64,000 bases of DNA from Candidatus Thiodiazotropha sp. CDECU1. GTDB lineage: Bacteria > Pseudomonadota > Gammaproteobacteria > Chromatiales > Chromatiaceae. The first letter of the stretch is position 1, and every line of letters begins with the position of its first letter. The stretch covers positions 1,178,001 to 1,242,000 of the forward strand of contig NZ_OY734020.1 in the NCBI RefSeq assembly GCF_963455295.1. The letters run 5' to 3'. Both the position numbers and the translations under genes were made by a program. This document shows positions 3,518 to 16,377 of the stretch, one piece after another. Under the pieces are notes generated by a model. The model saw nothing but the letters and a program-made list of their open reading frames with translations, had not been told where the DNA came from and ran no database searches.

Positions 3518-4729
3518 TTAAACCCTGTTACGCTTGATGAGCCCCATTCCGGTGACCCCTATCATTAAGAGCAGCAGGGTTCCAGGTTCCGGGACGTTGA
3601 AGTTTTCCCGGTTGATGAGATTCAATGTACCCTGTGGTGCAAATTCGTTGTAAGCCAGCGTTACAGATGTCTCAATCCAACTGCCATCTAAAAGATACCC
3701 CGTCAGAAGGTCGTTGTTGAGTTCCAGATCCCAGCCGTAGACATCAACAACTGCATTATTAAATATGCCAAAGCCGTTGCCGCTGTTGTTGTATCCAAAC
3801 AGCCCGCCGGTTATATCGAAATGACCAAAACCGGTGAGATGCAATAACCATCCATCATCAATCAGTCCGGCGCCTGCATCGAAGTAACCCCCTGATATGG
3901 TCGAATTGGTATTGCCGCTGTCATGGCTATAGCGAGTGGTTATTGCATTACCACCATACATGCCCCCGTCACCACCAAGAAGGCCGCCGCCTGATATATC
4001 GAGATTTAGCCCCTGTTGAGAAGTGACAGCGTCCCCTCCTGTTACGCCGCTTCCTCCAATGATTGTGCCGCCTGATATAGTGCCGGAAATAGTGCCGAAA
4101 GTTGTAACGCCATGACCACCAAGATTGATGCCGTTCCCTCCTTGGATGGTACCACCGGATATATCCAAACCAACGACTTCGATCCAACCGTCGATCCCGT
4201 TGCCACCAGATTGTCCACCCTCTCCACCAATAACCTCGCCGCCCTGTATAGAGGCGATTTGTGCGCCGGATGATGTGTTATCTATGCCATTGCCACCATT
4301 CGTAGCGTTGTCTGCGCCGATGAGTCGGGCATTGTCAGCAACCTCTACCCGTCTCGCACCGGAAACGGCACCTTGGCCATGACCGCTTGCCCTTTCACCC
4401 TGGCCAAGGATCTGTGTATTGTCATTGGCTATGACAGCATCTTCCTCGTTACTCCATGCCTGATAGTCGATACCTCCAATTACAGAGGCATTCCCGGTTA
4501 GCGTGATTGTCGATGCGCCCCCGGAACTGCTGTAGATTGCAGTTTGGGTTGCTGGGGTGATAATGGCACCCCCTTGGGTGATATGAAGATCGGAACCATT
4601 CTCTAAACGTACGTCTTCAAAAATTGAACTGTTGATTAGGTGGGTATTGCTATCGCTAAAAATAACTGTTGCGTGGGTTTGGGCTGATAGTGATCCAAGA
4701 AATGCAATAGCAAGCCATTTGAGTTTCAT
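3518..4729 (-). CDS. PEP-CTERM sorting-signal protein
   Basis: Exported protein of 403 residues with a signal peptide (MKLKWLAIAFLGSLSAQTHA) and a classical C-terminal PEP-CTERM sorting signal: VPEPGT, then a hydrophobic helix, then the basic end KRNRV. Such tails are cut by exosortase/EpsH-type enzymes and usually belong to surface or biofilm-matrix proteins. The mature part is rich in Gly, Asn, Ser and Thr, with repeated GG-x-G-x-x-GG segments that suggest a parallel beta-helix or solenoid. No exosortase gene is in the window. It lies downstream of, and in the same orientation as, the Pds kinase gene but is separated by 240 bases with its own candidate promoter. The specific function is unknown. 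Confidence 0.85.
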   Translation of the reverse strand: MKLKWLAIAFLGSLSAQTHATVIFSDSNTHLINSSIFEDVRLENGSDLHITQGGAIITPATQTAIYSSSGGASTITLTGNASVIGGIDYQAWSNEEDAVIANDNTQILGQGERASGHGQGAVSGARRVEVADNARLIGADNATNGGNGIDNTSSGAQIASIQGGEVIGGEGGQSGGNGIDGWIEVVGLDISGGTIQGGNGINLGGHGVTTFGTISGTISGGTIIGGSGVTGGDAVTSQQGLNLDISGGGLLGGDGGMYGGNAITTRYSHDSGNTNSTISGGYFDAGAGLIDDGWLLHLTGFGHFDITGGLFGYNNSGNGFGIFNNAVVDVYGWDLELNNDLLTGYLLDGSWIETSVTLAYNEFAPQGTLNLINRENFNVPEPGTLLLLMIGVTGMGLIKRNRV

Positions 4730-4971: not shown

Positions 4972-7038
4972 CTAGGTTGTATACGGAAGGACAAGGGTAA
5001 AACAAACACCATTAGATTCATTTCTAATCCGCACCTCTCCAAGATGGAATTCGGCTATCAGACGAACCAAATAGAGTCCAATACCGAGGTGTATTTGGTT
5101 GTCGTCGTCTTTCCTTCTCGATTTCATGCTGTGAAATAGCATTGGAATATCATTTTCAGGTATCTGTGGGCCTTGATTCCTGACCCCGATCTTGAGCAGC
5201 TTGCTGTGCTTCGCATCCATTGAAATTGTTATCGGGGTGTTCGGTTGGTGAAAGTCGACAGCATTACTGATCAGTTTGTCCAGGGCTTGGTTGATGAGGT
5301 CGGGAGAGATATGGATCCAAACCGATTTGGCCTCCAGGCGACATTCGAAATCGACATGCGGATAGGTAATGGCGTAACCGTCACACAAGGACTTGCAAAA
5401 TGCAGCGGCATCGACATTTTCTTTCTCACTGTTCTGTAGTGATTGTTCAAGCCGAGTGGCCTCGCGAATGCGCGTGAGAATTAAATTGAGTCTTCTTGTG
5501 CCATCGAGTGCTCTTCTGATATAGGTTGATTGCTGCTTGGAATCGCTATCTACCAGGATGTTCTCCAATGAGGTCTGTACCATTGTCAATGGTGTACGGA
5601 ATTCATGCGTGAGTCTCGAGGCCATGGACTCAAGATAACCGGTATATTCGATAGAACGTTTCAGTACCGCACCGAAGCTCCGATCAAGTTCTCCCAATTC
5701 GTCTTTATCCTTCCCCGCCTGCACCTCTTCGATGATTCTGCCGTCAGGGCTGACCACCCGGTTATATTTAATACTGAGCTGAGTGATGCGACGGGTCAGT
5801 GACGAGGCGAACAGGAGTAGTGTGCCTCCTGTAATGATGAACAGCATCAGACTTATGAGGAAAAGTCGTTCAAGGGCACTTTGTTGTAACAGTAGTATCT
5901 CTTGTGTACTCTGCTCAACAACCACTGAACCTACTATGTTATCTTCAATCTTAATCGGCTGAGCTGCTGATATAATCATTCTCTTGGAATCGGTTATTCT
6001 ATATCGATAGATCGCTCCTTTGCCCGAGAGTGATCGACGAACTTCAGGCCCGTCCAATTGTCCCATGTCATTCCTGGCGTCTCTCCCTGCCTCCTCTGGT
6101 GAAGGTGTTAATAGTGATATGAAACGACTTAGCAGGGTGTGGTTCGGTTTAACGAAGGGTTGGATCGACCCGTGCCGCCCTATAACCTGACGCTGCCTGT
6201 TTAGAATCGTATATCGATGTCTTTGCTCATCGAGACCATATAAAAGTCTGTCAACCTGCATATTGGGCATGACGAGTCGAGATAGAGTGCGATTACTGTT
6301 CCAGCCTGAAGTTGAGGCAATTCCTACCGGTTTCGCTTGCAACATGTCGATATCGACTGCTGCCAGGGAGAGTTGTCCGGCAGTCAGTGAGCGGGGTATT
6401 TGCAGTTCTACCCGGTAACCATGCGCAGTCTCTTGCCACTCCCCCTGAATAGCTGTCTGTTGACGATTGCTTTCATGCTCGACCACATTTATCCAACCTG
6501 GTGCAGGGGTGCCGAGTCGATATTTTCTGCTTTTACCGGATGGGCCAGGGAGAGCCAATATTAAATGATCTCCATCACTCAAGATGCGTTCAGATTGTGG
6601 ATAGACCAGGATCTGATCCTCGACCTCGATCAATAGATAGATAGAGTCCCCGTGAAATCCTGCAAGCCAATCGAGTGTGATTGCATCGGGATCTGTTGCA
6701 TTGGCCTTGAATTGGCGGGATTGAGGTTTCAGTTTGAGCCACTCTTCAGCATAGCCATCGATATCTGGGGGGCTGGTAAGTGGGTGGACATACAGGGTTG
6801 GGTTTTGAGTTGTCTCATCAGCAGTCGGAACATCCAATGAGCTGATGTTCGTGGCAAGCATATTGGCTACTATATCAGCCCTATTAAGCAGTAGGGTCTC
6901 CTGCGCCTGACGCAGCGATGCCTCCATCTCTGATAGATATTGATAGCCTGCCCAAGGAATCAGAATCAGGCTGAATGACGCAAGTAACAGTTTAAAACGC
7001 AGTGTCTGGGTGAAATGCAGTTTCGTCTTATCAGGCAT
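4972..7038 (-). CDS. pdsS: Dedicated sortase system histidine kinase PdsS
   Basis: Membrane sensor kinase of the proteobacterial dedicated sortase system. The 688-residue product has a transmembrane helix at about residues 14-34 and a long periplasmic sensor region with carbohydrate-binding-like beta content (VHPLTSPPDIDGYAEEW, resembling CBM9-type folds). A second helix follows at about 390-415, then a HAMP-like linker, a HisKA domain with the phospho-acceptor in LTHEFRTPLTM and a HATPase with an N box (LDKLISNAVD) and G box (LGIGLYLV). It follows pdsR with a 90-base gap. The signal sensed is unknown. The family call rests on overall architecture and on the full set of Pds neighbours within 10 kb. 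Confidence 0.88.
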   Translation of the reverse strand: MPDKTKLHFTQTLRFKLLLASFSLILIPWAGYQYLSEMEASLRQAQETLLLNRADIVANMLATNISSLDVPTADETTQNPTLYVHPLTSPPDIDGYAEEWLKLKPQSRQFKANATDPDAITLDWLAGFHGDSIYLLIEVEDQILVYPQSERILSDGDHLILALPGPSGKSRKYRLGTPAPGWINVVEHESNRQQTAIQGEWQETAHGYRVELQIPRSLTAGQLSLAAVDIDMLQAKPVGIASTSGWNSNRTLSRLVMPNMQVDRLLYGLDEQRHRYTILNRQRQVIGRHGSIQPFVKPNHTLLSRFISLLTPSPEEAGRDARNDMGQLDGPEVRRSLSGKGAIYRYRITDSKRMIISAAQPIKIEDNIVGSVVVEQSTQEILLLQQSALERLFLISLMLFIITGGTLLLFASSLTRRITQLSIKYNRVVSPDGRIIEEVQAGKDKDELGELDRSFGAVLKRSIEYTGYLESMASRLTHEFRTPLTMVQTSLENILVDSDSKQQSTYIRRALDGTRRLNLILTRIREATRLEQSLQNSEKENVDAAAFCKSLCDGYAITYPHVDFECRLEAKSVWIHISPDLINQALDKLISNAVDFHQPNTPITISMDAKHSKLLKIGVRNQGPQIPENDIPMLFHSMKSRRKDDDNQIHLGIGLYLVRLIAEFHLGEVRIRNESNGVCFTLVLPYTT

Positions 7039-7128: not shown

Positions 7129-7830
7129 TTAAAGCGTCCAGCGGTAACCAGCGCCATAGACCGATTCAATATGGCTGAATTCGCCGTCTAGTTGTAGGAA
7201 TTTCTTCCGCATACGTTTGATGTGGGTAGTGATACTGGCGCTATCCACATAGATATGTGCCTCCTCCATTAGTTGGTCCCGGCTTCTAACATGACCTGGG
7301 TGACGGACCAGGGCATACAGCATCCAGAACTCGGTGACAGTGAGGTTGACCGGGCTCTGTTTCCAGTGGGTCGTGAGCCGGTCAAGGTCAAGCTGAAGAT
7401 CCCCCCTAATCAGTTGCGATTCATTCGGTTGGTCCTGTTGCATGGCATCGACACGGCGAAACAGTGCGCCTATTCGTGCTATCAGGTGGGGCAGGCTGAT
7501 CTCTTTTGTGAGATAGTCATCGGCACCTAGTCGCAAGCCCGAGACGCTGTCAAAGTCACTGTCCCTGGCGGTCAGAAATATGATTGGCAGGGTGTTGGAA
7601 CGATTACGTAGTTCACGGCATAGCTCGAAGCCGCCATCAATATCATCGACCAGGCCGATATCGAGAATTACCAAGTCTGGCAGGCGTTTGTTGAAGGCTG
7701 TAAGTGCTTGCTGCCGTGTGGCATAGCCAGTTGCCGAATAACCCTGCCGGTTCAGGTAGTCGATATAGTTGTCCCGAATCACCCTTTCATCTTCAATGAT
7801 GGCAATCTGTTTTCTGGCCACGTTGATCAA
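7129..7830 (-). CDS. pdsR: Dedicated sortase system response regulator PdsR
   Basis: OmpR/PhoB-type DNA-binding response regulator paired with PdsS. The receiver domain occupies residues 8-125, with acidic pocket Glu13/Asp14, phospho-acceptor Asp57 in LVILDIGL and the conserved Lys in the KEISLPHL segment. The C-terminal winged helix (about 140-233) ends in the typical ESVYGAGYRW motif. The 233-residue length is normal. The start is a TTG preceded by AGAGGTT; a GTG nine bases further in is an alternative. It lies 44 bases after the GGDEF/EAL gene, so it may be cotranscribed with it. It is expected to control the divergent pdsO-substrate-sortase genes. Confidence 0.88.
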   Translation of the reverse strand: MINVARKQIAIIEDERVIRDNYIDYLNRQGYSATGYATRQQALTAFNKRLPDLVILDIGLVDDIDGGFELCRELRNRSNTLPIIFLTARDSDFDSVSGLRLGADDYLTKEISLPHLIARIGALFRRVDAMQQDQPNESQLIRGDLQLDLDRLTTHWKQSPVNLTVTEFWMLYALVRHPGHVRSRDQLMEEAHIYVDSASITTHIKRMRKKFLQLDGEFSHIESVYGAGYRWTL

Positions 7831-7874
7831 TCAACCTCTAGATTAAGTTCTCGATAAGGGAATTACCAACGTTA

Positions 7875-10793
7875 CTAGATTATAACGGATGAGGGTAGTG
7901 TGCTGGCGATCGGAATATCCGGGGATGGCCTGCCGACGTAGTATCCCTGTGCATAGGCAACTCCCAGCGTTGGGAGCAGATTGAGTGTGGATTCATCCTC
8001 AACGAATTCAGCGACTGTGGTTTTACCCAGTGCGGTTGCCATTTCAGTCAAGGCCTTGACGAAGACCCGGTCTTTGGTGTTGGTGGTCAGATTCTTTATG
8101 AAAGAGCCGTCAATCTTGACGATATCCAGTGGGAGCTCCCTGAGATAGTAAAAGGATGAGAAACCGACGCCAAAGTCATCCAGGGCAAACTGGCAGCCCA
8201 GGGCCTTAAGTTCGGTCATCAGGTCGATCGCTGCATTGACGTCCGCCAGGGCTGCGGTCTCTGTCAGTTCGAACACCAATCGCTCCGGATTGATGCCGCT
8301 TGTATTAAGGAGGTGTTTAAGTTGCGAGAGCAGGTCCGGGTCATCGATTACACGCCCTGAGAGATTGATCGAAAGTGTAAGGTCATGATTATCCTTATTC
8401 AAGCTGGAAAGACGATGAATCGCTGTGCGCAATACAAAGTGGTTGATCTTGTGTATCAACCCTGTACGCTCAGCGACGGGTATAAATTCACCCGGCAGGG
8501 CCAGAGTGCCGTCGCGTTCGATCATCCTGATCAATACTTCATAATGCGAGATAGTGCCAGTGGTTATCTCCATGATGGGTTGGAAGAATAGTACAAAGTT
8601 ATTATCCGCCAAGGCTTGTTCGATCTTGTCTTTCCAGGTCACTCGGGCATTCATCTCTTCACGGGCAAGTTCCTGGCTGGAGAAAATATGCCATTGATCT
8701 CTACCGGACTCTTTTGCCTGGTACATTGCCAGGTCGGCGTTTGACAGCAATTGCTCGGAATTGGTGCCGTGATCAGGATAGATAACAATACCGATACTTG
8801 CCGATATACGATGACTATGACCTTTCAAAGGTATTGTGATCTGTTTGAGTTCGGATGCCAGCTTGTCAGCGAATGTTGTTGCGTCCGAAATATCCGTTTC
8901 CGGGATTACAATGGCAAATTCATCTCCACCCAAGCGCGCGAGCAGGTCGGTGGAGCTGGTGACTTCCCGCAGTTTCTTGGCAACGATTTGCAATAGGGCA
9001 TCACCGGCCTGGTGGCTACTTGTATCATTTATGTATTTAAATTGGTCGAGATCGAAAAAGAGTAAAGCCGTTTGGTGGTGATAGCGCTCTGAAAGGGTTA
9101 ATATTTTATCAAATTCGACTTGGAAATTGCGGCGATTGTAGAGTTCTGTTAGTGGATCATGGTTGGCCATCCAGGCAAGACGCTGCTCGGCGACTTCCCG
9201 GTCGGTGATGTCGAGGCCCACTGAGAGCACAACAGGTTCATCAGAGTCATGTATGCCCGCCAGTGGAGAGTGGACCCAGGAGATGGTTTTCTTTTGCCCG
9301 TCCGCAGACAGGGAGTTAGCGTCGTGTTGATATGAGTTGATCATGCCATCACGCAGGCGTAACATCACATGCTTCATCTCTTTAATATCTTCAACGTTCA
9401 TAAAAAGATCACAGAAATGACGGGTGCCTCGCTCGTAATTTCTAATGCCAATAAACTCTCCGCCTTCGGTATTGATGGTGAGTATGGCGCCGTTGCAATC
9501 CTGGGTAAGGATGATTGCCTGTGCGCTGTCCATGATGGTATTGAGAAAATCACGTTCGATGGCTAACTCTTCACCACGCTTGACCAGGCTATCTGTGTTA
9601 GTTTTGATTTCGGTATGGAGTCTTTCCAAGGTGTATGTCAGGTGAATGGCAGATTCACTGGCTACGTCAATTTCATCCCGGTACCAATCAAAATGATTTG
9701 TGGATAGTTTGTGTCTTACTTCATGGAATGCATTCTTTGCCAGTAATGGCAGGCTGTGAGAGATCATTATCAGCCGTTTCATAGGCTGCCAAAGAAATAG
9801 TGCCAATAGCAGTTCGGAAACCAAAAAGCCAATTATGCCGATAATGACAGACTGCATAGTAGCTTGTTGGATCTGGTGGACAACCGGGGTTACATTGCTG
9901 GCTATAATAAAATCCGCTGAGAATACTGATATGTCACTATTCACAGGGATTAAACTTAAAGCATAATGTGATCCGTCTTTAACAGTTGTGTATCTACCTT
10001 TTCGCAGTCTGTTGATTTTGATTTCGCTGGATAGAGACTGTAACAGTGGTATTAGTCGATCTAAATTACTCGAGGCTGCAATGTAGCGTTGCCACTCTGT
10101 CAGATAACGATTTCTGCCTGCGAGAGCCTCAGAATTTTTAGGATGGTTTATAATTGCGACGTCAGCTTTTGCAAGTTCATTGAATTCAATAATTACATCT
10201 GCTAGTGATTGGCCAACCAATAAGACTCCTGCATGTCTGCCCTCGTCCAATAAGGGTACCGCGACATATTGGCTGCATCGAATATTGCAATGCAGGGTGT
10301 TGAAAGGTATTTCAAGGCGATTGACTGATTTAACCAATTCCAAGAAAGAGCCATCAAGCGTGCCTGTGTGCCAGTTGAATAATAATTTGTTGTCACTACT
10401 GAAAAAGGCTGCCTCTTCAAGGCCCCAGTCTATTTCGAGCGTTGCTTGGCTGTGTTGGAAAAACCTTTGCAGTTTTTCTGTCAAGGTTGAATTTTCAGAG
10501 GTTGTTACAGCTTCTGACAGTGCAGGAATCATGAGCGCTATCTGCTCCAATCGGTAGAAGCTGGTTTCAAGAAGGGATTTGACCTGTCTGTGATGTTGGC
10601 CGAGTATCTGTCCTTGATAGGTATCGAATAGTTTGCGTTGTTGAAGATATCCCATGCCTGTAAAGCCGGCATTGATAATAAACAAAACCAGGCTGAGCAG
10701 GAGTACAACCTTCCATTTGAGACTAAGGAAGTGTCGCTTGTTTGACTGGCGATTTCCGTCATCCTGTTGAAGTTTGTCGTTGCTCGAGTTCAT
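7875..10793 (-). CDS. Membrane sensor GGDEF/EAL c-di-GMP protein
   Basis: Bifunctional-type c-di-GMP enzyme of 972 residues. It has an N-terminal helix (about 26-46), a periplasmic sensory region of roughly 260 residues, a second helix (about 310-332), a HAMP/coiled linker, a PAS domain (about 420-535), a GGDEF domain with intact GGDEF in LARLGGDEFAIVI, and an EAL domain. The EAL signature reads EVLIR, with ELTETAAL, DDFGVGFSS and VKIDGSF motifs retained, so phosphodiesterase activity is plausible but uses an EVL variant. The gene starts nine bases after the beta-barrel gene and ends 44 bases before pdsR. That places c-di-GMP turnover in the same transcription unit direction as the Pds regulators. 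The ligand of the periplasmic domain is unknown. Confidence 0.9.
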   Translation of the reverse strand: MNSSNDKLQQDDGNRQSNKRHFLSLKWKVVLLLSLVLFIINAGFTGMGYLQQRKLFDTYQGQILGQHHRQVKSLLETSFYRLEQIALMIPALSEAVTTSENSTLTEKLQRFFQHSQATLEIDWGLEEAAFFSSDNKLLFNWHTGTLDGSFLELVKSVNRLEIPFNTLHCNIRCSQYVAVPLLDEGRHAGVLLVGQSLADVIIEFNELAKADVAIINHPKNSEALAGRNRYLTEWQRYIAASSNLDRLIPLLQSLSSEIKINRLRKGRYTTVKDGSHYALSLIPVNSDISVFSADFIIASNVTPVVHQIQQATMQSVIIGIIGFLVSELLLALFLWQPMKRLIMISHSLPLLAKNAFHEVRHKLSTNHFDWYRDEIDVASESAIHLTYTLERLHTEIKTNTDSLVKRGEELAIERDFLNTIMDSAQAIILTQDCNGAILTINTEGGEFIGIRNYERGTRHFCDLFMNVEDIKEMKHVMLRLRDGMINSYQHDANSLSADGQKKTISWVHSPLAGIHDSDEPVVLSVGLDITDREVAEQRLAWMANHDPLTELYNRRNFQVEFDKILTLSERYHHQTALLFFDLDQFKYINDTSSHQAGDALLQIVAKKLREVTSSTDLLARLGGDEFAIVIPETDISDATTFADKLASELKQITIPLKGHSHRISASIGIVIYPDHGTNSEQLLSNADLAMYQAKESGRDQWHIFSSQELAREEMNARVTWKDKIEQALADNNFVLFFQPIMEITTGTISHYEVLIRMIERDGTLALPGEFIPVAERTGLIHKINHFVLRTAIHRLSSLNKDNHDLTLSINLSGRVIDDPDLLSQLKHLLNTSGINPERLVFELTETAALADVNAAIDLMTELKALGCQFALDDFGVGFSSFYYLRELPLDIVKIDGSFIKNLTTNTKDRVFVKALTEMATALGKTTVAEFVEDESTLNLLPTLGVAYAQGYYVGRPSPDIPIASTLPSSVII

Positions 10794-10802
10794 TATGACT
10801 GG

Positions 10803-12011
10803 TTAGAAGCTGTAGGAGACAAGCAGGGAAAATAAGTTCCAATTCCGTTCTGTGCTATTAGGGTTGTTGTTTTCAAGATTGGATAGGAAGATAGTGCCCT
10901 CAACTTGGCTGAATTCTGCGCGCAGCATCAGCTGTTCGGTAGGTTCCCAGAGCACACCCAGCGTCCAAAGTTCACTGAAGAAGGTATGTGCGGGTAGGCC
11001 AAGGTTAGTGCTGGATTTTTCACCATTTTTATCATCCTTGTCATAGTGGCTCTCTTCATAGCGGGTGAATAGTTCCCAATCCGCATCAAGCCGATAGTTT
11101 CCTTGAATATAATAACCATCCACGGTTGTATCTGCCACATCCATCAGGCCGCTGAAACCCTCATAATCAATTGGCTGATACATATATTCCAGGGTTAGGC
11201 TCCAAGGGCCTGTATTATATTGTGATGATAACACCCAATAGTCGATCTCAATATCTCCAGGTGTGAACAGGTCTGTTTTTGCGTCCAGAGTCAGTGCGGC
11301 ATTGCTCAAGGCCAGTCTAAAACGACCTCCATCCCACTCATACAACAGTCTGCCTCCAAGGGTGATGCCGTCATTATCCATTTTAGAATTCAGGGCGGGG
11401 TTTAGATAGGAGTTCTCTACATTTTCATCGATGGGGGTTTTGCCGGCGATCAATCGTAGCTCAAACAGGTGATCCTCGAACTGAGTTTCTCCGTACAATT
11501 GTCCCCCGTCACTGGCGAGGACCATGTTTCGTACCCGGTCCCAGTAGATGGCCTGGGGCATAAAAATGCCTGGACGGGTTGCTGCCACGTCACGGGTGTC
11601 GTTATAGAATCCAAAGGTGTTTTTACTCCGACCGAGTATGAAGCCAAAACGGTTGTCTTCATCAGTTTGTAGGGTGTAATCGATATGTGCGTAATCCAGA
11701 TCGAGGGAACCGTCATACATTTCGCCGGCACGACGGGAGAGTACCTGTGCAGCGACCATAAACTGGGGTGTTAAACGATAGGATGCATTGATGCCCAATT
11801 CGCGGAAATCGAAGCTGCCGTCCTCACTGTCACCGAAAAACTGATTTTCTGTGGTCTTGACATAGGCTTGGGTCAAGAATCCATGTACTTGAAACATACT
11901 GTCAAAACCTACCTGATCGGCGGCCGACAATCCTCTGGACAACATGCAGAGTAGTGCGAACAGGCAAACAACCAGGCTAGTTCTCAATACTGATGGTTCG
12001 TACATACTCAT
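10803..12011 (-). CDS. Outer-membrane beta-barrel (porin-like) protein
   Basis: About 402 residues, exported (signal peptide with core VVCLFALLCMLSRGLSA) and predicted as an outer-membrane beta-barrel. It has many alternating Tyr/Trp/Phe strands, such as GFLTQAYVKT and GPWSLTLEYMYQP, and ends in SLLVSYSF with a terminal Phe typical of Bam substrates. An upstream in-frame start exists at 12038, but the ATG at 12011 has the better AGAAGGG ribosome site. The gene start lies inside the end of the preceding PBP-like gene (35-base overlap), and its stop is nine bases before the GGDEF/EAL gene. I cannot assign a substrate; it resembles FrpC/porin-like proteins of unknown role. Confidence 0.75.
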   Translation of the reverse strand: MSMYEPSVLRTSLVVCLFALLCMLSRGLSAADQVGFDSMFQVHGFLTQAYVKTTENQFFGDSEDGSFDFRELGINASYRLTPQFMVAAQVLSRRAGEMYDGSLDLDYAHIDYTLQTDEDNRFGFILGRSKNTFGFYNDTRDVAATRPGIFMPQAIYWDRVRNMVLASDGGQLYGETQFEDHLFELRLIAGKTPIDENVENSYLNPALNSKMDNDGITLGGRLLYEWDGGRFRLALSNAALTLDAKTDLFTPGDIEIDYWVLSSQYNTGPWSLTLEYMYQPIDYEGFSGLMDVADTTVDGYYIQGNYRLDADWELFTRYEESHYDKDDKNGEKSSTNLGLPAHTFFSELWTLGVLWEPTEQLMLRAEFSQVEGTIFLSNLENNNPNSTERNWNLFSLLVSYSF

Positions 12012-12399
12012 TAAAACGCCCTTCTGATAGATAACCAATCGCGCCAGGAGTGTTTGCTACCCGTTCCTGCATCTCATGCTCGGACTCCACTCTGATCGGT
12101 GCCTGACCCATACCGGAATAGATCTGCCGGTTCCAGGCGCGCCTCAGTTGATGTGGAAACAGGCCGAGTAGCTGTTTGGTGAAGCGTCTGTGTAGGTCAC
12201 TCTTGTCACCCAGAACAAAGACATGGATCGGTTTCCCGTCCGGCCACTGTGTCTTCCGCATACTGAATATGGAACGCAAGGTATGGCGTGAGAGTTTTTC
12301 TTGGGTGACATCTGGATTGATGACGAGGTCAACTGACTGTGCCGCTTCGCAGAAACACAACAAAAATCCGAATATAAATGCGAAGTAGGCAGTTTTCAT
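11977..12399 (-). CDS. Short PstS-like periplasmic binding protein
   Basis: Exported 140-residue protein with a signal peptide (core FAFIFGFLLCFCEAAQS) and a single PBP-like lobe resembling the phosphate-binding (PstS) superfamily: VDLVINPDV, LRSIFSMRKTQWPDGKPI and TPGAIGYLSEGRF are typical of these short standalone domains. It is about half the length of PstS, and no transporter genes are near. It is first in a tight run with the outer-membrane barrel and the GGDEF/EAL protein, so a sensory or accessory role is more likely than transport. The ligand is unknown. Confidence 0.75.
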   Translation of the reverse strand: MKTAYFAFIFGFLLCFCEAAQSVDLVINPDVTQEKLSRHTLRSIFSMRKTQWPDGKPIHVFVLGDKSDLHRRFTKQLLGLFPHQLRRAWNRQIYSGMGQAPIRVESEHEMQERVANTPGAIGYLSEGRFNEYVRTISIEN

Positions 12400-12691
12400 T
12401 CTTGATTACTGGTGATTCCTTGCCTTATACCTACGGCTTGGCGGCATCCATAAATAATAACTTTAGTCCAAATTACAATTGTCTATCAGCAATTTTGTAC
12501 CGCGAATCATAATACTACTTCCAGGTTGACAGAATGTCGCCACTTTTTGCCCCTCTACTGCCCCAATTTGGTGAGCAAAATGCCATCTCCATTGGCTGAA
12601 ATTGGTGTCGGTAATACCAACACCGGCGCAGCACAGGAGTGGACTGATATGCCATGGAAGGCACGCTGGGCCAACATCAATAGGTGAAAAA
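12400..12691. promoter_or_regulatory. Divergent intergenic region between the PBP-like gene and pdsO
   Basis: The 292 bases separate the minus-strand sensory/regulatory run from the plus-strand pdsO-substrate-sortase run and must carry promoters for both. The region is AT-rich around 12450-12520. A TTGACA at 12526-12531 has no good -10 partner at 16-18 bases. This is the most likely place for PdsR binding, but no convincing operator could be read by eye. Confidence 0.45.
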
Positions 12692-13384
12692 ATGAAGACA
12701 ACATTCGTAGCATTGGTAATTTCATGTCTCCTGTTTCAATCTGCGCTGGCAGCGGATGAGGGGGATAAAAGGGTGGAAAAGAGTGTTATCACCGGATCCA
12801 TGGTCGGGGTGCTGGTGGGTACTCTCCTAGGCGGGGCGCCTGGGGTTGTTCTGGGTCTTACCGGTGGCGCCATGATCGGCGATCTGGAAGCCCGTAAACA
12901 GGAGGTTGCTGATTTGGGTGATGAGCTGAAAGTGGTTCAGGGTATGCAGCAGAGAGAACAGCTTGCGGCCGCTGAACACCAGGCCCTGTTCCAACGTCAA
13001 CGCGACTTGGAATATGCCAGGGTAGAGGCCCTCCAGGAGGGGTATACCTTTTGTCTTGGATTTCGCAGTGACAGCGCTGAGATCGAAGCAGGTATCAGTG
13101 ACCAACTCAAAGCCATGGTAGTCATGTTGCAGGCCTTTCCCGAATTGAAGCTGCAGATTCTGGCCGCTGCGGATGTGAGGGGAAGCGACGATTATAACAA
13201 CACCCTCAGCAAACGCCGTGCGGATGCAGTCGCCGATCTGTTGAAGGCCTCCGGGTTGGCGGAAGATCGGATGGAAATCCACTCCATCGGCAATGCGCAA
13301 GCACGTTATCCCGCTCATGATCCTGAGGGCCTGGCCTATGACAGAACGGTCCGACTCTCCCTGATCAAGGGGGAAGAGTCATGA
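12692..13384 (+). CDS. pdsO: Dedicated sortase system OmpA-family protein PdsO
   Basis: Exported 230-residue OmpA-family protein of the Pds locus. It has a signal peptide (MKTTFVALVISCLLFQSALA), then a glycine-zipper hydrophobic segment with GVLVGTLLGG and LGLTGGAMIGDL at about residues 33-67, a coiled-coil stretch and a C-terminal OmpA-like peptidoglycan-binding domain with LSKRRADAVADLLKASG. The chosen ATG has an AGGTGA ribosome site; a longer in-frame extension to 12602 lacks one and would hide the signal peptide. The stop overlaps the start of a 53-residue frame in an ATGA. It probably links the outer envelope or inner membrane to the cell wall. Confidence 0.87.
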   Translation: MKTTFVALVISCLLFQSALAADEGDKRVEKSVITGSMVGVLVGTLLGGAPGVVLGLTGGAMIGDLEARKQEVADLGDELKVVQGMQQREQLAAAEHQALFQRQRDLEYARVEALQEGYTFCLGFRSDSAEIEAGISDQLKAMVVMLQAFPELKLQILAAADVRGSDDYNNTLSKRRADAVADLLKASGLAEDRMEIHSIGNAQARYPAHDPEGLAYDRTVRLSLIKGEES

Positions 13385-13542
13385 AGTTCTATCGACAACC
13401 CCTGAGGGAGGAGTTTTTCTACAGCTCCCCAGAGAAACCCATCGGCAATAGTTTCCGGTGGGTGGCTGTCGGATCGGAAGCAGATTCCCGCCAGACCCAG
13501 ATCAGAGGGGAGGTGCGGTGTGCTGCAAAAAAGCGTAATTAA
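13381..13542 (+). CDS. Possible 53-residue protein bridging pdsO and the sortase substrate gene
   Basis: A short frame beginning MKFYRQPLREEFFYSS starts in the ATGA that ends pdsO and stops 23 bases inside the GTG-started substrate gene. The start has a strong GGGGGAAGAG purine tract upstream, and the double overlap is typical of translational coupling. The product is basic and hydrophilic, without a signal peptide or membrane segment. I do not recognise it. It may be a real small protein or only a coupling device that carries ribosomes to the GTG start at 13520. Confidence 0.45.
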   Translation: MKFYRQPLREEFFYSSPEKPIGNSFRWVAVGSEADSRQTQIRGEVRCAAKKRN

Positions 13543-15682
13543 ATCCTCAGAAAGGGAAGGGAGGCCGGTCTCCTTCAGCAATGGGCTCTTCATTCGTGAC
13601 CTGGTGTTGACCCTGCTGGCAGCAGTGATGACCGGTGTGTCTGGCAGCATTTTATTGATTTTGCTGGTATTTGGCTGGAGTAGTGTTGAGGCTGATGGCC
13701 TAGAGCAGGAGGGTGTTGAGCTGCAGTTGCGATCATTGGATGGTCAGCTGCTGCAGTCGGCGCCAATGCTAAAAAGCGATGTTCAGGTAGATGTCACCGG
13801 GATGCTGGCCAAGGTGCGTGTGGAGCACCTGTTCATCAATCCAAGTCAATCCTGGATGGAGGGTGTCTATCAGTTTCCTCTGCCTGAATCGTCGGCTGTG
13901 GAACGTCTCAATATGCAGATCGGTGAACGGGTGATCGAGGGGCGGATCGAAGCGAAAAAAAAGGCGCAGCAGATCTATCGCAAGGCCCGGGAGCAGGGTC
14001 AGAGAGCCAGTCTGATGAGTCAACAGCGAGCCAATATCTTTTCACTTTCCCTGAGCAATATCGGTCCTGGGGAGGAGATTCGTGTGGTTATCGAATTTCA
14101 ACAACAGGCCCGCTACACGGAGGGTCGTTTTGAACTGCGGCTGCCGCTGGTGATCGGGCCGCGGTATATACCTGGGAATCCGCTATCCACCGCTAGATCC
14201 GTGGATCACACCCATTATGGGTGGGCCCCGGATAGTGATCAGGTGGAAGATGCGAGTCAAATCACTCCACCGGTACTGGATCCCGGTGATGGGGTGATCA
14301 ATCCCGTTTCGCTCCAAGTCAGGTTAGATGCGGGTATGCCGCTGCAGACAGTTACAAGTCACTACCATCCGATGCAGGAGCGCGTGGATGGGCAGGGTGT
14401 GGTTCATCTGCGATTGACCGAAGGAGAGGTGCCGGCAGACAGGGATTTCCTATTGAGTTGGCAACCACAAGCGGGTTCAATGCCAAGGAGTGTGCTCTTC
14501 ACCGATCATTGGCAGGATGAGGATTATGCGCTGTTGATGTTACTGCCTCCCGCTCCAGAGCACTATGAATCGGGATTGAATCGGGATCTGATCTTTGTGG
14601 TCGATCATTCAGGATCGATGCACGGGGCATCCATGGATCAGGCGAAAGCGGCCCTGCGACTCTCGATTGCCCGTTTGCAGCCAACAGACCGTTTCAATCT
14701 CATCGGTTTCAATAATCGGAGCCAAATGCTGTTCCTGACACCCCAGCCGGCCAACAGGAGCAATCTGAGTCGGGCAATCCGCTTTATCGATCGGATGCAG
14801 GCAGAGGGTGGTACTGAGATGCTTTCCGCCCTGGAAAAGGCCCTGCTCAATCAGAACCATGAGACTCGACTGCGTCAGGTAGTGTTTCTCACCGATGGTA
14901 GTGTTGGCAATGAACAGGCGCTGTTTGATCTGATCCGTCGACGTTTGGGTGCCAGCCGCCTGTTTACGGTCGGTATCGGATCGGCACCAAACACGCTCTT
15001 CATGCAGCGTGCCGCGCAATATGGACGTGGCAGTTTTACCTACATCGGTGATCTAACCGAAGTGGCCAGTCGAATGCAGGCCCTGTTGGAGAAACTCGAG
15101 TACCCGGCCTTGAGTCATTTAACCCTGGAATGGCAGGGTCCGGGGGATATTGATCTTGAACCGCAACGACTCCCGGATCTCTACCTGGGTGAGCCATTGA
15201 TGATAGCGCTTAAGGGGAAACGGCTTGAGGGCAGTCTGGCAATCCAAGCTAGAAGAGGTGACGATATCTGGCAGCAGAACGTCCAGGTTCAGTCGACCGA
15301 GCAGGTGACGGGAGTCCATGCGCTATGGGCCAGGCGGCGAATTGCGAGCCTGCTGGCACTGCCGAAGGATGAATTGGCACAGGATAGCAAGCGCCAGAGT
15401 GTGGTCGATTTGGCTTTGAAGCATCAGCTCGTCTCCCCCTATACGAGCCTGGTGGCGGTGGAGAAAAGGGTTGTTCGACCCCATGGCGAGGGCCTGGAGG
15501 GTGGCATGATGCCGGTCAATCTTCCCGCGGGATGGCATGCCGAGTCTGTCTTCGGCCGGTTACCGCAAACGGCAACGCCAGCCCCGCTGATGTTGCTCCT
15601 GGGAAGTCTCTTGCTGCTACTCTGGATAGTGTTTACTCGATGCATGCGCGCAGGGCAGGCCTCTGTCCCTGGATGCAAATGA
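13520..15682 (+). CDS. Marine proteobacterial sortase target protein (VIT/vWA)
   Basis: Dedicated substrate of the adjacent sortase, 720 residues. It has an N-terminal membrane/signal segment (about 30-57), a VIT domain (about 70-190), a vWA domain whose MIDAS motif DHSGSM starts at Asp362, and a C-terminal sorting signal: LPQTATPAP at residue 681, a Leu-rich helix, then Arg-containing residues. This resembles inter-alpha-trypsin-inhibitor-type architecture and suggests metal-dependent adhesion at the surface. The GTG start has GGAGG six bases upstream. The stop overlaps the sortase ATG (ATGA), so enzyme and substrate are translationally coupled. Assignment is firm from the sorting signal plus neighbours. 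Confidence 0.92.
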   Translation: MLQKSVIKSSEREGRPVSFSNGLFIRDLVLTLLAAVMTGVSGSILLILLVFGWSSVEADGLEQEGVELQLRSLDGQLLQSAPMLKSDVQVDVTGMLAKVRVEHLFINPSQSWMEGVYQFPLPESSAVERLNMQIGERVIEGRIEAKKKAQQIYRKAREQGQRASLMSQQRANIFSLSLSNIGPGEEIRVVIEFQQQARYTEGRFELRLPLVIGPRYIPGNPLSTARSVDHTHYGWAPDSDQVEDASQITPPVLDPGDGVINPVSLQVRLDAGMPLQTVTSHYHPMQERVDGQGVVHLRLTEGEVPADRDFLLSWQPQAGSMPRSVLFTDHWQDEDYALLMLLPPAPEHYESGLNRDLIFVVDHSGSMHGASMDQAKAALRLSIARLQPTDRFNLIGFNNRSQMLFLTPQPANRSNLSRAIRFIDRMQAEGGTEMLSALEKALLNQNHETRLRQVVFLTDGSVGNEQALFDLIRRRLGASRLFTVGIGSAPNTLFMQRAAQYGRGSFTYIGDLTEVASRMQALLEKLEYPALSHLTLEWQGPGDIDLEPQRLPDLYLGEPLMIALKGKRLEGSLAIQARRGDDIWQQNVQVQSTEQVTGVHALWARRRIASLLALPKDELAQDSKRQSVVDLALKHQLVSPYTSLVAVEKRVVRPHGEGLEGGMMPVNLPAGWHAESVFGRLPQTATPAPLMLLLGSLLLLLWIVFTRCMRAGQASVPGCK

Positions 15683-16377
15683 AAACCCTGTTCAGCAACA
15701 TCCTGAGATCGTGCCATATATCACCGCTCCTGTTCTTGGTTGCCTGCTGTTTTCTCGTCCAGGGGGCTTGGATCGAAGCGAAGGCCTGGTTGGCCCAGGC
15801 ATTGATTGCAACCGCTTGGAATGTAACGGCTTCACAGGCAGATAACATCCAACCCTGGCCCTGGGCCGATACCTGGCCGGTTGCACGCTTAGAGGTGCCC
15901 AGGTTGGGTGTAAGACGCTATATACTGGCGGGTGTCAGCGGTAGAACCCTGGCATTCGGCCCGGGATGGGCAATGCAGACGGCCCTGCCCGGCACCGAGG
16001 GAGCGAGTCTCATAGCCGGCCACAGAGATACTCACTTCCGCTTTCTCAAGGGGCTTCGCCAGGGAGACCGGTTGCTGCTGGATACCCCTGAGAAATCCAG
16101 GGTTATGTATCGCGTGACTGCCACCGCTGTTGTCGATCAACGGCAGAGTCGGCTGATATCGGATCAGGGGGAGCGGGAATTGATACTGGTGACCTGTTAT
16201 CCATTTGAGGCCCTTCGACCAGGGGGGGAGTTGCGATATGTGGTGTGGGCAGAAGCTGAATCTAGACAGACATTCGGGTTAGAATCGACGTTGAACCAAA
16301 CCATAATTACAAACCTGAATGAAGCCGATCCGAATATTTCGCCATCTCGTCTGTCAGCATCCCGGTTATCTGGGTGA
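15679..16377 (+). CDS. Class GN sortase
   Basis: Membrane-anchored transpeptidase expected to cut the LPQTA motif of the neighbouring VIT/vWA protein and attach it to an envelope acceptor. The 232-residue product has an N-terminal helix (about 13-30) and the sortase triad: His115 (LIAGHRDTHF), Cys173 (LILVTCYPF) and Arg180 (EALRPGGELRY). The ATG at 15679 overlaps the substrate stop; longer in-frame extensions back to 15532 run inside the substrate gene and are not needed. The C-terminal 40 residues after YVVWAEAE are a tail, and its end overlaps the next gene by 59 bases, an unusually long overlap. Confidence 0.92.
   Translation: MKTLFSNILRSCHISPLLFLVACCFLVQGAWIEAKAWLAQALIATAWNVTASQADNIQPWPWADTWPVARLEVPRLGVRRYILAGVSGRTLAFGPGWAMQTALPGTEGASLIAGHRDTHFRFLKGLRQGDRLLLDTPEKSRVMYRVTATAVVDQRQSRLISDQGERELILVTCYPFEALRPGGELRYVVWAEAESRQTFGLESTLNQTIITNLNEADPNISPSRLSASRLSG

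Follow-up and report, generated by a model that had tools for sequence, protein, structure and literature searches.

We analyzed a 64,000-nucleotide stretch, hereafter the window, of the complete 4.46-Mb genome of Candidatus Thiodiazotropha sp. CDECU1 (contig NZ_OY734020.1, positions 1,178,001 to 1,242,000), focusing on three consecutive minus-strand genes that we call the trio. The first (11977..12399) encodes a 140-amino-acid periplasmic binding protein (PBP)-like protein with a signal peptide-like N terminus, the second (10803..12011, ATG start at 12011) a 402-amino-acid outer-membrane porin-like beta-barrel, and the third (7875..10793) a 972-amino-acid membrane protein with dCache_3, GGDEF, and EAL domains, which belongs to the cyclic di-GMP (c-di-GMP) genes. 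A sequence-only reading of this DNA had described the three as tightly packed, and the coordinates confirm the 35-base overlap between the PBP-like and barrel genes and the nine-base gap between the barrel and GGDEF/EAL genes. In Candidatus Thiodiazotropha, the trio is positioned between the two halves of a pds sortase locus: the minus-strand block runs from the PBP-like gene through the barrel and GGDEF/EAL genes to pdsR and pdsS, and genes for a PdsO-like protein, a sortase target, and a sortase lie divergently. A protein identical (100%) to the PBP-like protein occurs in a metagenome-assembled lucinid-clam symbiont (host Ctena orbiculata); the next relatives are mostly named Candidatus Thiodiazotropha or lucinid-clam symbionts.

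At the loci examined outside this genus, the trio and the pds genes were found apart. The pdsR family TIGR03787 was matched above its cut-off in 58 of 369 class genomes and 13 of 57 family genomes, with two genus genomes in both counts, giving 67 non-genus pdsR loci, one per genome (56 class, 11 family; L063-L098, L123-L142, L161-L171), plus seven below the cut-off. No trio part (PBP, barrel, or dCache of the family) occurs at any of the 67 loci (0/56 class, 0/11 family), at least 3 kb upstream of pdsR being available in 55 and the other 12 being cut by contig ends; nor does one occur at the seven loci below the cut-off. Barrels were found in 25 of the 57 family genomes and PBP homologues in 76 of the 369 class genomes. 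From these we examined 21 family loci (L061, L062, and L174-L192, leaving out the barrel-fragment genomes G394, G409, and G431) and 20 class loci (L194-L213, comprising the 19 best non-genus PBP matches and genome G139, and leaving out G174 and weaker matches). The three parts stand in order on one strand at 33 of these 41 loci (16/21 family, 17/20 class); the GGDEF/EAL gene is cut by a contig end in two of the 33 (L062 and L191), and the barrel of L062, from Endoriftia, is broken into two frames. Two family and two class trio loci are cut by contig ends. Gaps within the ordered trios, as sized from mechanical open reading frame starts, are mostly overlaps or shorter than 60 bases, with the exceptions of L203 (411), L209 (91), and the frame-broken L062. 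A pds gene is present in none of the 41 stretches, each of which spans 3.7 to 20 kb. Thus the neighborhood survey that the sequence-only reading had proposed finds the trio for the most part separate from pds genes. Genome G426, from a different genus of the family, carries the trio and a pds locus about 41 kb apart on one chromosome (contig C1); in G405 and G424, the two modules are on different contigs.

The three proteins also diverge together. Across 34 loci, Mantel correlations were 0.88 for PBP and barrel, 0.88 for PBP and GGDEF/EAL, and 0.93 for barrel and GGDEF/EAL; across the 26 non-genus loci, they were 0.83, 0.79, and 0.88, respectively. Shared species history adds to these correlations, which none of 2000 permutations reached. 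Because order and strand recur at most non-genus loci and the proteins diverge together, the arrangement is not a chance one. One locus (L213, genome G139) has two successive PBP-barrel pairs ahead of a single GGDEF/EAL gene.

The PBP-like protein belongs to PBP_like_2 (PF12849, 31.5 bits against a cut-off of 27) and is predicted to consist of one PstS-type lobe, with the second lobe of a two-lobe PBP missing. Its AlphaFold model has a predicted local distance difference test score (pLDDT) of 90 and matches PstS over about half of the PstS length, with TM-scores among the ten best matches of 0.66-0.70 by query and 0.36-0.40 by target, and its sequence matches are likewise limited to one PstS lobe. 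It thus shares its fold with PstS phosphate-binding proteins over about one lobe but is half as long, lacks the second lobe, and matches their anion-loop region poorly. An RxxxSG anion motif of the PstS type, suspected by eye, was dropped after alignment with the PstS-like structure 1twy. The barrel matches Porin_4 (31.9 bits, cut-off 27) and Porin_O_P (27.7 bits, cut-off 20.9), and 15 columns are invariant among 45 aligned sequences.

In the GGDEF/EAL protein, whose three domains were assigned by Pfam and examined in alignments and an AlphaFold model, both catalytic motifs are intact in the alignment. The GGDEF motif is present in all 41 aligned sequences, as are E752, N810, E842, D872, D873, and K893 of the EAL domain; E929 and Q949 are present in 40 of 41, with one gap each. 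We take these positions to be the catalytic residues. The I-site, a site of product inhibition, has Arg in 27 of the 41 sequences and Ser in the window copy. Genes of this kind are common in the window genome, since it has 73 GGDEF matches, 72 of them above the family cut-off.

The sensor has a cysteine pair, Cys169 and Cys173, invariant in 41 of 41 sequences. Among 39 sensor domains, the others of which are 21-78% identical to that of the window, the only invariant positions besides Met1 are C169, C173, P180, and G189. The model of residues 1-350 (pLDDT 85) matches dCache chemoreceptor and kinase domains with modest TM-scores, the LuxQ periplasmic domain 3c30 among them. Because C169 ends one strand of the model and C173 starts the next, a disulfide across the turn is plausible. 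The trio dCache_3 matches of seven genomes carry the pair in six of six cases, and seven of eight non-trio dCache_3 proteins from seven genomes lack it; the pair is not a general dCache_3 trait. We rejected the idea that it is exclusive to the trio, as one of those eight (L230, genome G249) has it. That protein has no trio barrel or PBP adjacent, and in its GGDEF-like domain we found no GGDEF motif.

Known systems resemble the trio in part. NspS of Vibrio cholerae is described as a periplasmic binding protein that binds norspermidine and is believed to control the membrane GGDEF-EAL protein MbaA and hence c-di-GMP (PMC5646818). Similarly, in the trio a PBP-like gene is linked to a gene for a membrane GGDEF-EAL protein that bears a periplasmic sensor, at the 33 ordered non-genus loci and in the genus; compared by description, the trio differs in having one PstS-type lobe and an outer-membrane barrel, and in a partner sensor that is a dCache_3 domain with an invariant Cys pair. 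In LuxP-LuxQ, a PBP is the partner of a dCache-type periplasmic sensor; LuxP is a full two-lobe PBP, LuxQ is a histidine kinase, and no barrel takes part. The match of the trio sensor model to 3c30 is a likeness to this system; set against these general features of LuxPQ, the trio has a GGDEF/EAL output instead of a kinase, a one-lobed PBP, and a barrel. The YfiBNR operon combines an outer-membrane and a periplasmic part with an inner-membrane GGDEF part, YfiB being an OmpA-like lipoprotein and YfiN lacking an EAL domain. As judged from this general layout and from family scans, the trio likewise spans three compartments, but unlike YfiBNR as generally known it has a porin-like barrel and an EAL domain. 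In the titles and abstract openings that literature searches gave, neither the trio nor its link to sortase genes is described, and as an envelope-to-c-di-GMP module it is apparently undescribed.

Within the window, pdsR (7129..7821, minus strand) is a sortase-associated response regulator that scores 363.9 bits with TIGR03787 (cut-off 335.7). It is followed by a pdsS-like histidine kinase gene (4972..7038, minus strand) whose best family by far is TIGR03785, although its 558.1 bits lie under the cut-off of 612.2. On the plus strand, divergent from the trio, are a PdsO-like OmpA protein (12692..13384; best match TIGR03789, 87.4 bits, under the cut-off of 152.2), whose start we placed at the Met preceding a signal-like segment, a VIT/VWA sortase target (13520..15682; TIGR03788, 740.6 bits, cut-off 551.65), and a class GN sortase (15532..16377 as the open reading frame is listed, the true start probably lying inside; TIGR03784, 217 bits, cut-off 158.25). 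The neighbors of the trio thus match the set of the proteobacterial dedicated sortase system (TIGR03784, 03785, 03787, 03788, and 03789), but the trio itself stands outside that set, as its absence from the 67 non-genus pdsR loci indicates.

A few further observations concern the pds genes. A PEP-CTERM protein is encoded immediately downstream of pdsS in the window (3518-4729); in the close relatives L044-L046 it lies several kb off, separated from pdsS by a further GGDEF/EAL gene, and the remaining genus stretches fetched did not show it. PEP-CTERM proteins were rejected as a usual partner near pdsRS, a crude C-terminus scan giving one candidate in the 67 loci. We likewise discarded a general tie of pds loci to c-di-GMP genes: any GGDEF/EAL gene occurs within the fetched stretch at six of these 67 loci, against 73 GGDEF matches in the window genome alone, and no enrichment is apparent from the counts. 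A sortase or target was recognizable in only 23 of the 67, with single-sequence searches and some short stretches, and pdsRS may often act away from sortase.

The junction between the GGDEF/EAL stop and pdsR was compared within the genus, which we surveyed in 21 genomes of Candidatus Thiodiazotropha, a genus of lucinid-clam symbionts. The 44 bases previously given for the window hold if pdsR starts at the TTG at 7830; we take the junction as 53 bases (7822..7874, minus strand) because a GTG start at 7821 is conserved in all 19 genus junctions compared. Counted from this GTG, the gap ranges from 47 to 473 bases across the genus. A promoter-like element precedes pdsR in 11 of the 19 junctions and is conserved in two clades of related species: a TTCACT-N17-CATAAT element is common to L043-L046 and L216, and a TATAAT block to L053-L057 and L217, amid otherwise poorly alignable sequence. 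The junctions of L058 and L059 have unrelated weak promoter-like matches. Only the 3' half of its close relatives' promoter-like region can be aligned with the window junction, the -35 half being absent, and the junction contains no terminator-like site and no sigma-70-like match; over the region, promoter-like matches do not outnumber those in shuffled sequence. Read-through into pdsR may therefore occur in the window organism, given the lack of a terminator in its junction. Of the promoter and terminator that the sequence-only reading had named as evidence against a single unit, a promoter-like element is found in many relatives but not in the window junction, which also has no terminator.

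At its other end, the trio is preceded by a conserved sigma-28-like box (TAAAGTT-N13-GCCG; 12442..12465, minus strand), 43 to 66 bases ahead of the PBP start codon in the window. In an alignment of 17 genus PdsO-PBP intergenic regions, or 16 after omission of the short row L047, it consists of an invariant CTAAAGT and, 13 bases further on, an invariant TGCCG, the whole lying 43 to 67 bases ahead of where PBP translation starts. The sigma-28 (FliA) promoter consensus is TAAAGTTT-N11-GCCGATAA-like, and the box resembles it with a spacer one base longer. Sigma-28 control of the trio in the genus, as suggested by this motif, is likely but unproven.

Taken together, these results lead us to read the trio as a self-contained envelope-to-c-di-GMP module that is inherited as a unit across Gammaproteobacteria and that in Thiodiazotropha is embedded in the pds locus, of which it is not a necessary component, a reading to which we assign a probability of roughly 65%. 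The trio probably senses something in the envelope and alters c-di-GMP, in the manner of NspS-MbaA or LuxPQ. By analogy with NspS-MbaA and from the anatomy of the proteins, we infer that the barrel would admit or report an envelope solute or state, and that the half-PBP may relay this signal by contact to the dCache domain that the GGDEF/EAL protein has in the periplasm, where the Cys169/Cys173 pair may set or lock the sensor conformation; the output would be changed c-di-GMP synthesis or breakdown. In the genus, transcription of the trio probably starts at a sigma-28-like promoter of its own, and that of pdsR in many species probably at a separate promoter, with read-through conceivable across the 53-base junction of the window organism.

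Several observations weigh against this reading. Among the non-genus loci, the EAL part is in a separate frame in L206, and L210 has no EAL match; the PBP-barrel pair occurs without a same-strand c-di-GMP gene at three of the 41 (two family, one class), with no adjacent c-di-GMP gene in L177 and L188 and one placed tail to tail in L195, and the barrel stands alone at one family locus. Eighteen loci with weaker PBP matches (L103-L120) are not trios; only L108 has a barrel match, a weak one of 41 bits, and a GGDEF gene lies somewhere in the stretch at six. Concerning ligand binding, the GDKxxLH of the half-PBP aligns with TREASSG of 1twy, a weak alignment (E 0.018) to a region that we take to be the anion loop, and canonical phosphate binding is therefore doubtful. 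The sigma-28 pattern is not enriched in the window genome, with 10 matches against 10 for a reversed control; in its favor, a flagellin domain match follows one of the 10 at a distance of 129 bases, although the spacer there is one base shorter than in the trio box. A second conserved stretch, GCGCCGG, lies nearer PdsO in the same intergenic region, and we withdrew the view that the box is the sole conserved stretch there, the short L047 row having hidden columns. A sigma-28 promoter was also rejected as a general trio trait, as most upstream regions outside the genus score like shuffles. Three score better (L062, L175, and L180, matched by 2, 1, and 4 of 200 shuffles), their sites do not resemble the genus box, and a few such scores are expected by chance among about 40 upstream regions. 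Before pdsR, no promoter-like match was found in the window, L048, L049, L050, L060, or L214, and for eight of the 11 junctions with an element, 49 to 178 of 300 shuffles also gave a single match (95 for L044, 178 for L057); thus, the promoter argument rests on conservation in place. Lastly, pdsR comes immediately after the GGDEF/EAL gene in every assessable genus genome, 19 of the 21 (the window, L043-L046, L048-L050, L053-L060, L214, L216, and L217), and linkage this consistent could reflect real co-regulation. The two not assessable are G382, where pdsR is 144 bases from a contig end, and G384, which has no pdsR match.

Apart from the trios, a distant PBP_like_2 paralogue lies near an opposite-strand GGDEF gene at four of the weaker loci (L114, L116, L117, and L118, with L117 from another family), another recurring pairing of a half-PBP with a c-di-GMP gene.

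Alternatively, the linkage in the genus may be a mere accident of synteny that has no effect on the regulation of either module, a possibility that we place a little short of even odds. Mapped as a control, cytochrome c, YkuD, amidotransferase, and further genes on one side are ordered alike wherever the genus stretches extend that far, and many genus loci also retain two genes on the other side. Because these non-pds genes are syntenic too, the linkage is weak evidence for function, and passive retention can explain it. The PBP was found in 19 of the 21 genomes, G379 and G382 being those without it, and pdsR in the window genome and all but one of the 20 others; in G379 (L214), the contig begins within the GGDEF/EAL gene, itself broken into two frames, and this start of the contig accounts for the missing PBP.

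G384 also favors an accidental association. This draft of about 160 contigs, 99% complete, has a complete trio beside YkuD at the site of its relatives' sortase genes (L051), with a slightly degenerate upstream box, and its contig ends 573 bases past the GGDEF/EAL gene with no pdsR in that stretch. We found no match to TIGR03787 (E 1e-60), TIGR03788 (1e-20), or TIGR03784 (1e-10) in the genome; the search beyond this locus did not extend to pdsS and PdsO. The pds system has apparently been lost there by natural deletion. Drafts call for caution, since among five other genomes searched for sortase and target, G379 gave no sortase match, G382 gave only a partial target, and the target of G377 was split over two contigs. 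Against a wholly accidental association stands the window junction itself: with only the 3' half of its relatives' promoter-like region, it leaves room for read-through from the trio.

That the trio, pdsR, and pdsS form one operon, in the window organism at least, by which sortase expression is tied to envelope sensing and c-di-GMP, appears unlikely to us. It was the sense of the sequence-only reading, and its physical side has stood, as the join is conserved in 19 of the 21 genus genomes; the shared strand and the 53-base window junction, free of terminator-like and sigma-70-like sites, are consistent with it as well. As a functional unit, it is weakened by the variable gaps, the promoter-like footprints of relatives, the retention of the trio without detectable pds in G384, and the lack of linkage at the non-genus loci examined, and the adjoining non-pds genes are largely syntenic too; we gave up the single operon as our principal explanation on these grounds. 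The sortase tie is a genus-level neighborhood with possible read-through in the window organism, not a general circuit. It is equally improbable that the PBP and barrel are mainly a solute-uptake pair to whose imported solute the GGDEF/EAL protein merely responds, as the PF12849 and Porin_O_P matches and the pairs of L177 and L188 might suggest, since the window's three-gene unit has no ABC permease or ATPase, the PBP is one-lobed with a poor match to the PstS anion loop, and 33 of 41 loci have a c-di-GMP gene on the same strand after the pair.

Our findings on the trio as a self-contained module bear on how bacteria may connect the state of their envelope to c-di-GMP. A recurring gene set spanning outer membrane, periplasm, and inner membrane, together with an invariant Cys pair, offers a testable route for this connection, and it occurs in many Gammaproteobacteria, including clam and tubeworm chemosymbionts. 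The trio deserves its own name, and that it is closely packed with sortase regulators in a single genome does not in itself amount to evidence of a shared circuit. A bolder reading, which we consider rather unlikely, is that of an undescribed, widespread gammaproteobacterial relay in which the state of the envelope is reported by the barrel and a one-lobed PBP derivative without transport function to a dCache sensor that is gated by cysteines and sets c-di-GMP, and which in the clam symbionts has come under a flagellar promoter beside the sortase regulators. If this were true, a motile, host-seeking stage could prime the anchoring of surface proteins.

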